64,000 nt of DNA from positions 1 to 64,000 of the forward strand of contig CADCVH010000001.1 of NCBI GenBank assembly GCA_902806085.1, written 5' to 3'. Position 1 is the stretch's first letter. Every line of letters begins with the position of its first letter. The notes beneath the pieces are model-generated. The model did not search any database. It was not told the origin of the DNA and worked only from the letters and a program-made list of their open reading frames with translations. This stretch comes from an uncultured Rubrobacteraceae bacterium. Lineage in GTDB: Bacteria; Actinomycetota; Rubrobacteria; Rubrobacterales; Rubrobacteraceae. A program made the translations under genes and the position numbers. Shown piece by piece: positions 2,067 through 8,282 of this stretch.

Positions 2067-2228
2067 GAAGCGGCGCATTCTGCGTCCCGTACATCCATCA
2101 ACCTTGCAGCGAGGTGCGCATCGGGCCGATAGCGTGTGCTTTAAAGGGGCGTTTCTGACCCTATAGGACCGTGGGGCTATGCAGGATTCTGCAAGTGAAT
2201 TCCCGAGGCGTCCACAAAGTTGGAGAAA

Positions 2229-2252
2229 GCTCGCGGAACGCGTTCCGCGAGC
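2229..2252. promoter_or_regulatory. Perfect 24-bp palindrome upstream of the riboswitch
   Basis: The half site GCTCGCGGAACG is followed directly by its exact reverse complement with no spacer. It lies about 60 bases before the c-di-GMP riboswitch and 145 bases before the HD-GYP start. A symmetric dyad of this length fits a dimeric repressor or activator site; as RNA it could form only a hairpin with a very tight loop. No T-run follows. The regulator is not identifiable. Confidence 0.5.
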
Positions 2253-2289
2253 GTAAGCACGCCCACGGTTTGTGGCGTCCTGCGTGGGG

Positions 2290-2388
2290 TACGCTTGGCC
2301 TGTCCACGAAAAGGCAAACCCGCCGCGAGGCGGGGGCGCAAAGCCCACGGGCCTCTCCTCTCGGGAGAGGCTGCCGGGCCGCCGAAGG
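2290..2388 (+). promoter_or_regulatory. Cyclic di-GMP-I (GEMM) riboswitch
   Basis: The diagnostic GEMM-I elements occur in order. GGCAAACC is at 2313-2320, then a P2 stem CCCGCC with a GCGA tetraloop (GNRA type) and GGCGGG, then GCGCAAAGCC at about 2336-2345. A P3 stem follows, built on GGGCCTCTCC and its complement, closing with GCCGGGCC near 2373-2380. The GNRA loop docks into the second hairpin in known members. The 3' edge runs into GAAGGAG (2384-2390), the ribosome binding site of the HD-GYP gene. P1 may pair CTTGGC (2293-2298) with GCC(G)AAG and so mask that site. This suggests translational control by c-di-GMP; the direction (on or off) cannot be read with certainty. Confidence 0.8.
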
Positions 2389-2396
2389 AGAAGATC

Positions 2397-3509
2397 GTGC
2401 GAGACCGCAAGAATGGGCCATGTCCCGCCCACGAACCCGGGACGCCCGAGGCGGGCCGGCTGGAGGAGTTGGCCGACCTCGCGTCCGACCGCACGCCCGA
2501 CACCTTAAGCCGCACGATGGCCCTGGCCAGGGAGACGCTTGGGATGGAGGTCGCCTTTGTCTCGGAGTTCGCCGGCGACCGGATGTTGTTCCGGGCCCTG
2601 GAAGGCGACGCCGAGTCTTTCGGGTGGCGCGAGGGCGGGGGCGTCCCGCTGGAGGGCACCTTCTGCAAGCGGGTGGTCGACGGCGCCCTACCGAGCGTGG
2701 TCCCCGACGCCAGGAACGACGGGCGCGTCGGCGGCCTGGCGGTCACGCGCGAGGCGGACATCGGCTCCTACGTCGGCCTGCCCCTGCGGTTCTCCGACGG
2801 GCGCGTCTACGGCACGCTGTGCTGCCTGAGCCACTCCCCGGAGGTGCGCCTGCGGGAGCGCGACGCCCGGTTCATGGAGCTGCTCGCCCGTTTGGTGGCC
2901 GAGCAGATCGAACGCGAGGAGATGGAGGCGGAGAGGCGTCGTCTGGAGGTCAGGGCGGCGGGGGCGGGGGCGCTGCTGGCCGCCCTGGGGGCCCGCGACG
3001 GGTACACCGGCGCGCACTCCGAGGCGGTGGTCGGGTACGCGGTGGGCGTGGCGCGCCGGATGGGGCTCCCCGAACGGGAGGTCGCCGAGGTCGAGCAGGT
3101 CGCCCTGCTGCACGACGTGGGAAAGGTCGGCGTTGCCGACGCCATCCTGAACAAGCCGGGGCCGCTCGACGACGCCGAGCGGGAGGTCATGCGGATGCAT
3201 CCCGCGATCGGTGAGGGGATCGTCGCGGCCACGAAGGGGCTCGCCCACCTCGCGACGGCGATCAGGGCGGAGCACGAGAGGTGGGACGGGAAAGGCTACC
3301 CCGACGGGCTCTCGGGCGAGGAGATACCGCTTGCCGGCCGCATCGTCCTGGTGTGCGACGCCTTCCACGCCATGACCTCCGATCGCCCCTACCGCGAGGC
3401 GATGGGGGTCGAGGCCGCGCTGGGGGAACTGCGCAAGCACGCCGGCGCGCAGTTCTGCCCCCGCACCGTCGAGGCCTTCCTGGGCATGGTCGAACAGGAT
3501 CCCGCGTGA
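2397..3509 (+). CDS. GAF-HD-GYP protein, putative c-di-GMP phosphodiesterase
   Basis: From GTG 2397 the protein is 370 residues. An N-terminal GAF domain (about 15-175; LPSVVPDAR, IGSYVGLPL, YGTLCCLSH) precedes an HD-GYP domain (about 195-365). Seen motifs are LLHDVGKVGV, the HPAIGEGI helix, EHERWDGKGYPDGL and DAFHAMTSDRPYR. HD-GYP enzymes hydrolyse c-di-GMP to pGpG or GMP at a di- or tri-iron site. The first His of the usual HHE is Glu here. A longer frame from ATG 2220 would run through the riboswitch; GTG 2397 has GAAGGAG six bases upstream and is preferred. With the riboswitch this is a likely c-di-GMP feedback loop. The GAF ligand is unknown. Confidence 0.88.
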   Translation: MRDRKNGPCPAHEPGTPEAGRLEELADLASDRTPDTLSRTMALARETLGMEVAFVSEFAGDRMLFRALEGDAESFGWREGGGVPLEGTFCKRVVDGALPSVVPDARNDGRVGGLAVTREADIGSYVGLPLRFSDGRVYGTLCCLSHSPEVRLRERDARFMELLARLVAEQIEREEMEAERRRLEVRAAGAGALLAALGARDGYTGAHSEAVVGYAVGVARRMGLPEREVAEVEQVALLHDVGKVGVADAILNKPGPLDDAEREVMRMHPAIGEGIVAATKGLAHLATAIRAEHERWDGKGYPDGLSGEEIPLAGRIVLVCDAFHAMTSDRPYREAMGVEAALGELRKHAGAQFCPRTVEAFLGMVEQDPA

Positions 3510-6299: not shown

Positions 6300-6649
6300 C
6301 GTCGGTCGTCGATGTCTGGCGGTTGACAGAGATGTTTAGCGAAGCGCCCTGGATCGCTTGCGCCCCGGCGATAGACCCTGCTAGGCGCGGGACAAGGGTC
6401 ACGAACGGTACGCTACCTTCGTCTTGTTTGTGTCCTCTAGTTGCATCTGGAGCGACCCTAGAGCTTAGCCACGTGCGCAATCGAGGCTGGTCCTGTACGG
6501 CTAGCCTCTTTTGAGGCATCCCGGCGTGCCGCGCCTGCTGCTGCCGGTCGAATACCGGGGCAGGGCGGCACCGGGCGCATTTATACCGAAAGCGGCAAAG
6601 GTTAGAGTAGGGTCTCCCAGCGAGCGTTAGGGAAGGGAGGTGCGAGCAC
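6300..6649. other. Leader region with a likely promoter for the micro-ORF/HD-GYP unit
   Basis: There is no gene of ordinary size. TTTATA (6580-6585), 17 bases, then TAGAGT (6603-6608) matches a housekeeping promoter (-35 four of six). The same -10 sequence occurs in the better promoter at 10830-10858. A transcript starting near 6615 would carry both micro-ORFs, the hairpin and the HD-GYP gene. Confidence 0.45.
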
Positions 6650-6679
6650 ATGACTTTTTTCCATAAGAGGAGCTGGTAG
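6650..6679 (+). CDS. Micro-ORF 1, nonapeptide MTFFHKRSW
   Basis: ATG-ACT-TTT-TTC-CAT-AAG-AGG-AGC-TGG-TAG encodes MTFFHKRSW. The ribosome site GGAGGTG (6636-6642) lies 7 bases upstream, close to ideal. It is the first of two tandem nonapeptides ending FHKRSW. Codons differ between copies at silent positions (CAT/CAC, AGC/TCC, TAG/TAA), which suggests selection on the peptide. It lies about 35 bases after the predicted transcription start and upstream of an HD-GYP gene. Possible roles are a leader peptide, a ribosome-stalling peptide or a signalling peptide; none is shown. Confidence 0.6.
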   Translation: MTFFHKRSW

Positions 6680-6766
6680 GGAGGTTCGGGTGAAAGGATT
6701 TCGGCGTCGGGTGGCCTGTCGGCCTTCCGCCGCGCACGAGGGGACGACGAAGGGGGGTGGGGTCAG

Positions 6767-6796
6767 ATGGGCTACTTCCACAAGAGGTCCTGGTAA
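6767..6796 (+). CDS. Micro-ORF 2, nonapeptide MGYFHKRSW
   Basis: ATG-GGC-TAC-TTC-CAC-AAG-AGG-TCC-TGG-TAA encodes MGYFHKRSW, with AGGGGGG (6751-6757) as ribosome site. Six C-terminal residues and the position of the stop are identical to micro-ORF 1, 117 bases upstream, whereas residues 2-3 (TF versus GY) and the flanking DNA differ. It ends 91 bases before TTG 6888 of the HD-GYP gene. The pair looks like an old duplication held by peptide-level constraint. Confidence 0.6.
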   Translation: MGYFHKRSW

Positions 6797-6887
6797 ACGC
6801 CGCCTTGCGCAGATTGTGCCGGGCCTGCCGCGTATGCGATGATGCGCGTATGGCGGAGATCCGGCACGCGGCAAACGGGGGCGGGTT

Positions 6888-8282
6888 TTGGGCGGCGACG
6901 TAGGCCTCAAGGCCTACGTCGCCGCCCTGGCCGCGCTCTCGCTGGCGCTTGCCGCGTCGTGTGCCCACCAATTCGGCGTCGAGCTCGGGCCGCGCTACGT
7001 GGTCGGGGCGGTGGCGTTCGGCGCGGTCCTGGCCCTCGCGGAGTTGTTCCCCGTGCGTGTGGGAGACCACTCGGAGGTGAGCGCCGTGGACGCCGGGCTG
7101 GTCCTCGCGTCGGTGGTCTTGGGTCCTCTCTGGGCGGTTCCCGCAGCGTTCTCCTGCGCCCTGGTCGAGGGCAACGGGGACCCCTTGAGGACCTCCCACG
7201 CGGCGGCCCGCAACGCCGCCGAGGTCCTTCTGGCAGGGGCGGCCTTCTCGTTCGTGACCCCGCCCCTGCTCTCCTCGGGAGACCCGGTTTCGAAGGCCGC
7301 GGCGGTGTACGCGACCCTGGCAGCGGCTGCGGTGCTCCTCGTCGCGAACAACGCCCTCGACGCATGCCTGCTGAAGGCCAAGTACGGCCAGGCGTTTGGG
7401 CAGACCTGGGAGGACGTGCTCAAGCCGTACCTCCTCTCCGACGCGGTCAACGTCCTGACGGCAAGTCTGGGTACGCTGGCGCTGCTCTCCTACGGTCCGG
7501 TCGCCGCGGTGGTGCTCGTAGCGGGATCCGTGGGCAGCCAGGCGCTGGTCTTGCGCTCCCGCGAGCACGCCAGGAGAAGCAGAGAGTTGGAGACCGAGAA
7601 TGCTGCCCTCAAGCGCGCCCTCGCCGGTGCCGGTATGACCTTCGGATCGCTGGCGGCGGAGGCGCTGGGGCGCAAGGACGGATACACGCACCGCCACGCG
7701 GCGGCAACGGCGGTCTACGCCGCCGACCTCGCACGCGAGATGAAGCTGGGCGAGAAGCGGGCCGAGGAGTTGCGACTGGCCGGCCTGCTGCACGACGTCG
7801 GCATGGCCTTCCTCCCCGAGGAGCTCTTGCTCGCGGGGGGCAGGGCCAATTCCGTGGCCCAAAGGGAGCTCGCGGAGCACCCGGCGCTGGGCGAGGCGGC
7901 GCTCGCCTCGGTACCGGGCTACGAGGAGCTGTCCCGGTGGGTGAGGTGGCACCACGAGAGGCCCGACGGGCGGGGCTACCCGGACAAACTCCGCGGGTCC
8001 TGGATACCAGTCGAGGCGAAGATACTCGCCGTCGCCCAGGCCCACGCCGACCTGGTACTCGACGGGCCGAGCTGCCCCGGTGTTCCCCCGCGAGAGGCGC
8101 GGGAGCGTTTGGCGGCGGACATGGACGCGGGGTTCGACGGGACGGTGCTCAAGGCCTTCCTGAGGATTCTCGACACTGAGTCGGAGGGCTACCGCAACGC
8201 CGACGACCACCGGTTCGTGTTGCCCGGCCGGTCGGGACCGCGCGGCGTCCTCGAAGAGGACGCCGCGGGCGCGCCCTCGTAA
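6888..8282 (+). CDS. Membrane HD-GYP domain protein
   Basis: The protein has 464 residues from TTG 6888. About six hydrophobic helices form a MASE-like sensor region (8-205; LKAYVAALAALSLALAASC, VVGAVAFGAVLALAELFPV, then AAVLLVANNALDACLL). A short coiled coil (RRSRELETENAALKRAL) and an HD-GYP-like domain (about 245-430) follow. LLHDVGMAF has Met in place of the usual Lys, HPALGEAAL and HHERPDGRGYPDKLRG are kept, and the DAFDAMTSDRPY block is replaced by AQAHADLVLDGPSC. It may be a weak phosphodiesterase or a c-di-GMP-responsive scaffold. The first codons lie in a perfect 17-bp hairpin. The micro-ORFs lie upstream in the same direction. Confidence 0.8.
   Translation: MGGDVGLKAYVAALAALSLALAASCAHQFGVELGPRYVVGAVAFGAVLALAELFPVRVGDHSEVSAVDAGLVLASVVLGPLWAVPAAFSCALVEGNGDPLRTSHAAARNAAEVLLAGAAFSFVTPPLLSSGDPVSKAAAVYATLAAAAVLLVANNALDACLLKAKYGQAFGQTWEDVLKPYLLSDAVNVLTASLGTLALLSYGPVAAVVLVAGSVGSQALVLRSREHARRSRELETENAALKRALAGAGMTFGSLAAEALGRKDGYTHRHAAATAVYAADLAREMKLGEKRAEELRLAGLLHDVGMAFLPEELLLAGGRANSVAQRELAEHPALGEAALASVPGYEELSRWVRWHHERPDGRGYPDKLRGSWIPVEAKILAVAQAHADLVLDGPSCPGVPPREARERLAADMDAGFDGTVLKAFLRILDTESEGYRNADDHRFVLPGRSGPRGVLEEDAAGAPS
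6890..6927 (+). promoter_or_regulatory. Perfect 17-bp hairpin across the start of the HD-GYP gene
   Basis: GGGCGGCGACGTAGGCC (6890-6906), loop TCAA, then the exact reverse complement (6911-6927). It overlaps the TTG start (6888-6890) and codes for the first residues GDVGLKAYVAA. In mRNA it would bury the start codon. No T-run follows, so termination is less likely than translation control. Confidence 0.6.

Follow-up and report, generated by a model that had tools for sequence, protein, structure and literature searches.

Leaderless peptides of 8 aa are encoded beside the RopB receptor gene in Firmicutes (PMC10518010). In another group of described systems the very short ORF belongs to a leader: MsrDL, a hexapeptide ORF located between the MFS gene mefA and msrD, stalls at its own stop codon (PMC10314930). 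Biarylitide precursor genes consist of five codons and are sometimes present in multiple copies (PMC13417212). Among HD-GYP proteins, DvhD is a catalytically inactive receptor of c-di-GMP (PMC13090378).

A pair of micro-ORFs upstream of an HD-GYP gene, found in a 64-kb stretch of Rubrobacteraceae DNA (the window, i.e., the whole stretch that was analysed), and the related arrays in other Rubrobacteraceae shared features with these systems. As in the leaderless communication peptides that pair with RopB (LCP/SIP), an ultrasmall ORF preceded by a Shine-Dalgarno (SD) site (8 codons in LCP/SIP) and lacking a signal sequence sits beside a receptor gene, if the HD-GYP neighbor is indeed a receptor, and the peptide code varies between receptors. 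The RopB peptides are hydrophobic, their receptor is a cytosolic RRNPPA transcription regulator, and tandem copies are not mentioned (PMC10518010), whereas the Rubrobacteraceae arrays have tandem copies, mostly cationic Trp-terminated peptides and a membrane S-component/HD-GYP protein, and belong to Actinomycetota. Because the receptor differs, the peptides are cationic and the copies are tandem, the arrays were not assigned to the LCP class; by analogy, the RopB peptides appear to be the best precedent for a trans-acting reading.

The arrays resembled TnaC and MsrDL (PMC8429421, PMC10314930) in the very short ORF, the critical C-terminal residues and the apparent importance of stop codon identity, and gene order of the mefA-msrDL-msrD type (MFS gene, micro-ORF, regulated gene) was also found. 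TnaC and MsrDL differ in that they are not tandem identical copies and in having other peptides and other downstream genes. Biarylitide genes are accompanied by a dedicated P450 and tailoring enzymes, whereas none were recognised at the arrays. DvhD is similar in having an HD-GYP domain that has lost its HD pair, and its structure (9rbz) was among the top fold matches, in the low-confidence part of the model; it carries a periplasmic dCache domain, in contrast to the S-component-like membrane domain and micro-ORF array seen here. No description of such micro-ORF arrays was found in the open-access literature searched, and the family is apparently undescribed so far.

Twin Micro-ORFs in the Window

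Two nine-codon ORFs were located on the forward strand of the window: micro-ORF 1, encoding MTFFHKRSW (ATG to TAG, positions 6650-6679), and micro-ORF 2, encoding MGYFHKRSW (ATG to TAA, positions 6767-6796). Each started 7 nt after a strong SD-like site (GGAGGTG at 6636-6642 and GGGGGTG at 6753-6759; matches to the GGRGGTG pattern spanned 6636-6679 and 6753-6796) and stopped right after Trp, which confirmed the positions given in the original prediction. Its description of the DNA also held: within the shared FHKRSW segment the twins differed only silently (CAT/CAC, AGC/TCC), and their flanks were unrelated (31-38% identity for the pair, at or near chance).

The FHKRSW hexapeptide, which had been expected in relatives, was absent elsewhere. 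An exact search of the genome itself and eight other genomes of the genus returned only the twins, so FHKRSW was discarded as a conserved feature; the closest match in the genus was a single FHKRWW in another genome. The original prediction had named the lack of FHKRSW micro-ORFs in relatives as grounds for its rejection, and relatives did lack them; that test was too narrow, because they carry micro-ORFs at the same place that encode different Trp-terminal peptides.

Micro-ORF Arrays Across Rubrobacteraceae

Homologues of the adjacent HD-GYP gene were present in 33 of 39 Rubrobacteraceae genomes. Upstream of most of the closer homologues stood micro-ORFs in tandem, 6-11 codons long, each with an ATG or GTG start behind a ribosome site resembling GGAGGTGA. 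There were one to four copies per locus, and the last residue of these HD-GYP-adjacent micro-ORFs was always Trp. Examples of the encoded peptides were MARRSW (four copies, with ATG or GTG starts), MFWARKSW/MFWARSSW, MTDRWRTW/MLDRWRTW, MSEGKARFW (three copies), VSEGKIHAW (three copies) with VAEGKIHAW, and VREGKSHIW. Across 41 upstream regions, the combination of an SD site, an ATG or GTG start and a short ORF ending in TGG and a stop codon was observed 77 times against 0.84 expected from shuffled sequence (maximum of 4 in 100 shuffled runs), while no last codon other than TGG occurred more than three times. The TGG-stop class of micro-ORFs is not due to chance. In a pattern scan of the 39 genomes, with the hit list judged by inspection, multi-copy clusters occurred only at these HD-GYP loci.

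The curated set contained 73 micro-ORFs from 33 loci. Starts were ATG in 53 and GTG in 20 of these, and stops were TAG in 38, TAA in 34 and TGA in one (i.e., TAA or TAG in 72 of 73). HD-GYP genes ended in TGA in 20 of 42 cases; relatedness ignored, the chance of at most one TGA among the micro-ORF stops was about 2e-19. Position -2 before the Trp was mostly occupied by Arg (28), Lys (25), His (10) or Asn (6), and the peptides of the set were mostly cationic. Successive copies were evenly spaced, mostly at 68-104 nt, with unstructured spacers between them (mean z +0.34). Rfam gave no match at the arrays, nor in 20 leaders.

Two irregular copies were also seen. At locus L050 (G025:C1) an additional copy upstream of VPELKKNAW had decayed: it reads MPKLKNNAW and has CAA where the stop would be. 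At locus L030 (G002:C77) an isolated MSFRDLW ORF with a good ribosome site was found off the array, 702 nt upstream of the HD-GYP gene; it may be a chance occurrence.

Selection on the Encoded Peptides

Within loci, 80 of 123 codon differences between copies were silent, compared with 22 expected (73 of 93, compared with 17.6, for the last five codons). The binomial probability of the overall bias was about 1e-30, which is indicative only as the pairs are not fully independent (copies of one locus, related genomes). Amino acid identity between copies was 87% within a locus and 17% between loci; at sites with the same residue, the codon differed 30% of the time within loci and 57% of the time between them. 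The flanks of copies were random (28% mean identity over all pairs). By these measures the copies are old, with peptides that nevertheless match. At locus L020, four copies ending in ARRSW had 62% codon differences, and this locus together with L019, L024 and L049 was near saturation at silent sites, with the peptide still the same or nearly the same. In sister genomes all copies had been replaced together: three copies of EGKSHIW corresponded to four of EGKIHAW, and two of ARKSW to two of ARKIW. Computationally, these comparisons show the micro-ORFs to be under selection as translated peptides, as had been proposed for the duplicated pair in the window.

Paralogous loci within one genome had a mean peptide identity of 0.19, as different as unrelated loci. 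Such loci encode different peptides in one genome, so the code goes with the locus rather than with the ribosome. The simplest inference from these patterns is that all copies at a locus would have to match one locus-specific partner. Copies at four loci (L048, L017, L021, and L042) had no silent difference at all, and gene conversion may contribute to within-locus identity there.

The HD-GYP Partner Protein and Its Gene Neighborhood

The gene downstream of the twins (6888-8282, forward strand, TTG start) encodes a membrane HD-GYP protein of 464 aa (Pfam HD_5, 7.5e-27). Residues of about 30-205 (6975-7502) were predicted to form an ECF S-component-like transmembrane domain, and the HD-GYP domain (7671-8147) had both an intact HD dyad (LLHDVGM) and an intact HHERPDGRGYP motif by Pfam and alignment. 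The AlphaFold2 model, built on six sequences, was poor in its HD-GYP part and had pLDDT values mostly of 70-84 over most of the membrane domain. In fold comparison with VIA-align each of the top 22 rows was an ECF S-component or a related ECF subunit (Z 9-15); RibU, FolT, ThiT and biotin S-components were among them, with about 150-185 residues of this moderate-confidence model aligned. As modelled, the membrane domain has the six-helix ECF S-component fold. It was found in 24 of 396 genomes of a phylum sample, and all 24 were Rubrobacteraceae.

The HD pair was degenerate in 35 of 40 aligned homologues (HN in 16, QD in 12, MD in three, QN in two, RD in one, and CD in one), and the HHExxDGxGYP motif was kept nearly throughout. 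Among the five homologues with an intact pair, the window protein was the only one with an array; the other four were at loci without arrays. Judged from these residues, an HD-GYP protein lacking the HD pair, as in most relatives and not in the window, probably reads c-di-GMP rather than degrading it. Start codons of HD-GYP genes in the relatives were not always identifiable.

Two types of loci were distinguished. Most A-type loci, those of close relatives of the window gene, had the order MFS_3 transporter, array, HD-GYP gene and GAF-HD-GYP gene, and the MFS_3 gene was directly upstream in all nine A-type loci examined outside the window's own genome. None of those flanking genes was present at the window locus, which has the appearance of a module that has moved. 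In B-type loci the HD-GYP gene was the only shared partner and there was no MFS gene.

Promoter-Like Elements and Hairpins

A promoter-like element (P2) was identified by motif score between the last micro-ORF and the HD-GYP gene. In the window P2 spans 6814-6843 on the forward strand and has the form TTGTGC-N18-GATGAT, with TTGTGC at 6814-6819, an extended -10 element TATGCGATGAT at 6833-6843 and 18 bp between the hexamers; it was the sole match above a score of 15 on either strand of the window. The consensus was CTGTAC or TTGTGC, 18 bp, and an extended -10 of TGCTCTANAAT or TGTGCRANAAT. Spacing was exactly 18 bp in 30 of 33 loci, and the mean score over the 33 loci was 17.3, compared with 9.8 ± 0.5 in shuffles. 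Exact forms of the motif were nearly exclusive to these loci across the 39 genomes (9 of 11 and 7 of 7 matches). In HD-GYP relatives without micro-ORFs, a -10-like motif was seen by eye directly after the upstream MFS gene. From its sequence and position we infer that P2 is the promoter of the HD-GYP gene, downstream of the array. A housekeeping promoter was rejected as its identity, the motif being nearly confined to these loci; the fixed spacing and near-exclusive occurrence before this HD-GYP family suggest a dedicated sigma factor or activator.

The micro-ORFs had been placed on the leader of the HD-GYP gene. Their upstream position stands, and leader status is doubtful: the gene appears to be driven by a promoter of its own, the conserved element P2, downstream of the arrays. 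A separate array promoter (P1) is tentatively proposed from visual comparison with relatives: its -10 would be GTAGGGT at 6607-6613 (forward strand), about 36 nt upstream of micro-ORF 1, and in about a dozen loci GTAGCAT was seen by eye some 35-40 nt before the first copy.

An imperfect inverted repeat overlapping P2 (6816-6867, forward strand) was predicted to form a hairpin (RNA fold z -2.3). At many A-type loci with arrays this tail hairpin was strong (z to -7.7); most B-type loci and some of the A type had a weak one or none, and five relatives without arrays had none. It was considered as a general switch sequestering the SD site, and this was dropped since the effect was clear in only about 4 of 15 loci relative to shuffled upstream sequence. 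A further hairpin, predicted over the HD-GYP start codon, is real in the window, where a perfect 18-bp inverted repeat with a 2-nt loop (6890-6927) covers the first HD-GYP codons; it is not conserved, relatives having stems of 6 bp or less.

A Proposed Trans-Acting Peptide and Alternative Explanations

The favored reading, given a probability of roughly 0.45, is that the twin ORFs are multicopy genes of a leaderless peptide acting in trans on the adjacent receptor. The array would be transcribed on its own, and its several copies, with ribosome sites close to consensus and spacers free of structure, would supply a single short peptide, cationic and Trp-terminated (ending in FHKRSW in the window), in large amounts. 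Within the cell or from cell to cell, this peptide would serve as a ligand for what the adjacent gene encodes, a putative sensor in which an ECF S-component-like domain is fused to an HD-GYP domain, and the different peptides of different loci would keep paralogous modules insulated. The reading is favored because the peptide code follows the locus, because the number of copies and their ribosome sites look suited to output, and because the HD-GYP gene seems to be served by a promoter of its own. Several observations count against it. A free peptide would have no need for the near-exclusive use of TAA and TAG (72 of 73), a bias suggesting a role of termination itself. The array always lies immediately 5' of the gene with its copies evenly spaced, as in cis-acting leaders, and gene conversion could explain some of the identity within loci. 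The usual ligands of S-component folds are vitamins, not peptides. Neither the window locus nor the B-type loci have the MFS gene, and the window protein keeps its HD pair.

The main rival is a cis-acting termination-arrest leader, in which the nascent Trp-terminated peptide would stall the ribosome at UAA or UAG in response to a small molecule and alter transcription or translation of the HD-GYP gene. Its length of 6-11 aa would be in keeping with known short arrest leaders, for instance the hexapeptide MsrDL (PMC10314930), and the same explanation would cover stops that are nearly all UAA or UAG, Trp as the sole enriched last residue, constraint that is greatest over the last five codons, and the strong hairpin past the last micro-ORF in many A-type loci that five array-less relatives do not have. 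It leaves unexplained why variable residues are matched within a locus while paralogous loci in the same genome differ. Spacers without structure also speak against it, as do the weak or missing tail hairpin of most B-type and some A-type loci and an SD sequestration in the long transcript that is not general. A promoter-like element separates array and gene, and we know of none at that place in TnaC or MsrDL. A leader of this kind is considered less likely than the favored reading. Attenuation by Trp starvation was rejected, as most ORFs have one Trp codon and no biosynthetic or transport gene lies downstream.

The other explanations were given much lower weight. RiPP precursor micro-genes of the biarylitide kind, with several copies for dose, would agree with the aromatic C-terminal residue and have a parallel in the five-codon precursor genes known in bacteria, with up to six copies in Lysinibacillus (PMC13417212); they are improbable here, as the neighbors examined (21 regions, Pfam on some neighbors) included no recognisable modifying enzyme, whether P450, radical SAM or another kind, and the sole constant partner, with neighbor families partly annotated, was the HD-GYP gene. 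That the repeats are an RNA or DNA motif, such as a protein- or RNA-binding site with incidental reading frames, is very improbable: conserved GGAGGTGA and TGGTAR blocks and even spacing would be expected of such a motif, but not the silent-site bias, the interchange of ATG with GTG and of TAA with TAG, two-base switches among Ser codons and among Arg codons (AGC/TCC, CGN/AGR), unalignable flanks or the lack of an Rfam match in 20 leaders. Recent tandem duplication or gene conversion without selection for matching peptides would account for the identical copies at L048, L017, L021 and L042. It can hardly account for the family, in which the copies at most multi-copy loci share a peptide despite random flanks and many silent changes, and chance duplication yields neither 77 ORFs against 0.84 expected nor an end that is only Trp.

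Of the roles suggested in the original prediction, the sensed peptide or ligand of the membrane HD-GYP protein is the best supported candidate and the stalling leader its main rival. Matched copies within a locus and codes that differ between loci are as expected for a peptide matched to a local partner. More tentatively, a trans-acting peptide of this kind may define a new class of peptide signaling, in which arrays of two to four leaderless micro-genes (6-11 codons) encode a locus-specific Trp-terminated peptide for an adjacent S-component-like receptor whose HD-GYP module would be catalytically inactive in most relatives. A pathway from peptide to c-di-GMP would thereby exist in Actinomycetota, each genome having several orthogonal pairs. 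Should the adjacent protein bind the peptide as its ligand, a short peptide signal would be tied directly to a c-di-GMP receptor and several orthogonal natural pairs would be at hand for specificity tests; should the array prove to be an arrest leader, it would amount to a set of termination-arrest sensors present in several copies. Gene callers do not report genes anywhere near as small as these, yet selection is clear on peptides as short as six residues.

Other Features of the Window

Elsewhere in the window, a c-di-GMP-I-GGC riboswitch (2304-2387, forward strand; 60.6 bits, gathering threshold 59) was found at the 5' end of a GAF-HD-GYP gene. The corresponding ORF spans 2220-3509, and its true start is probably downstream of the riboswitch.
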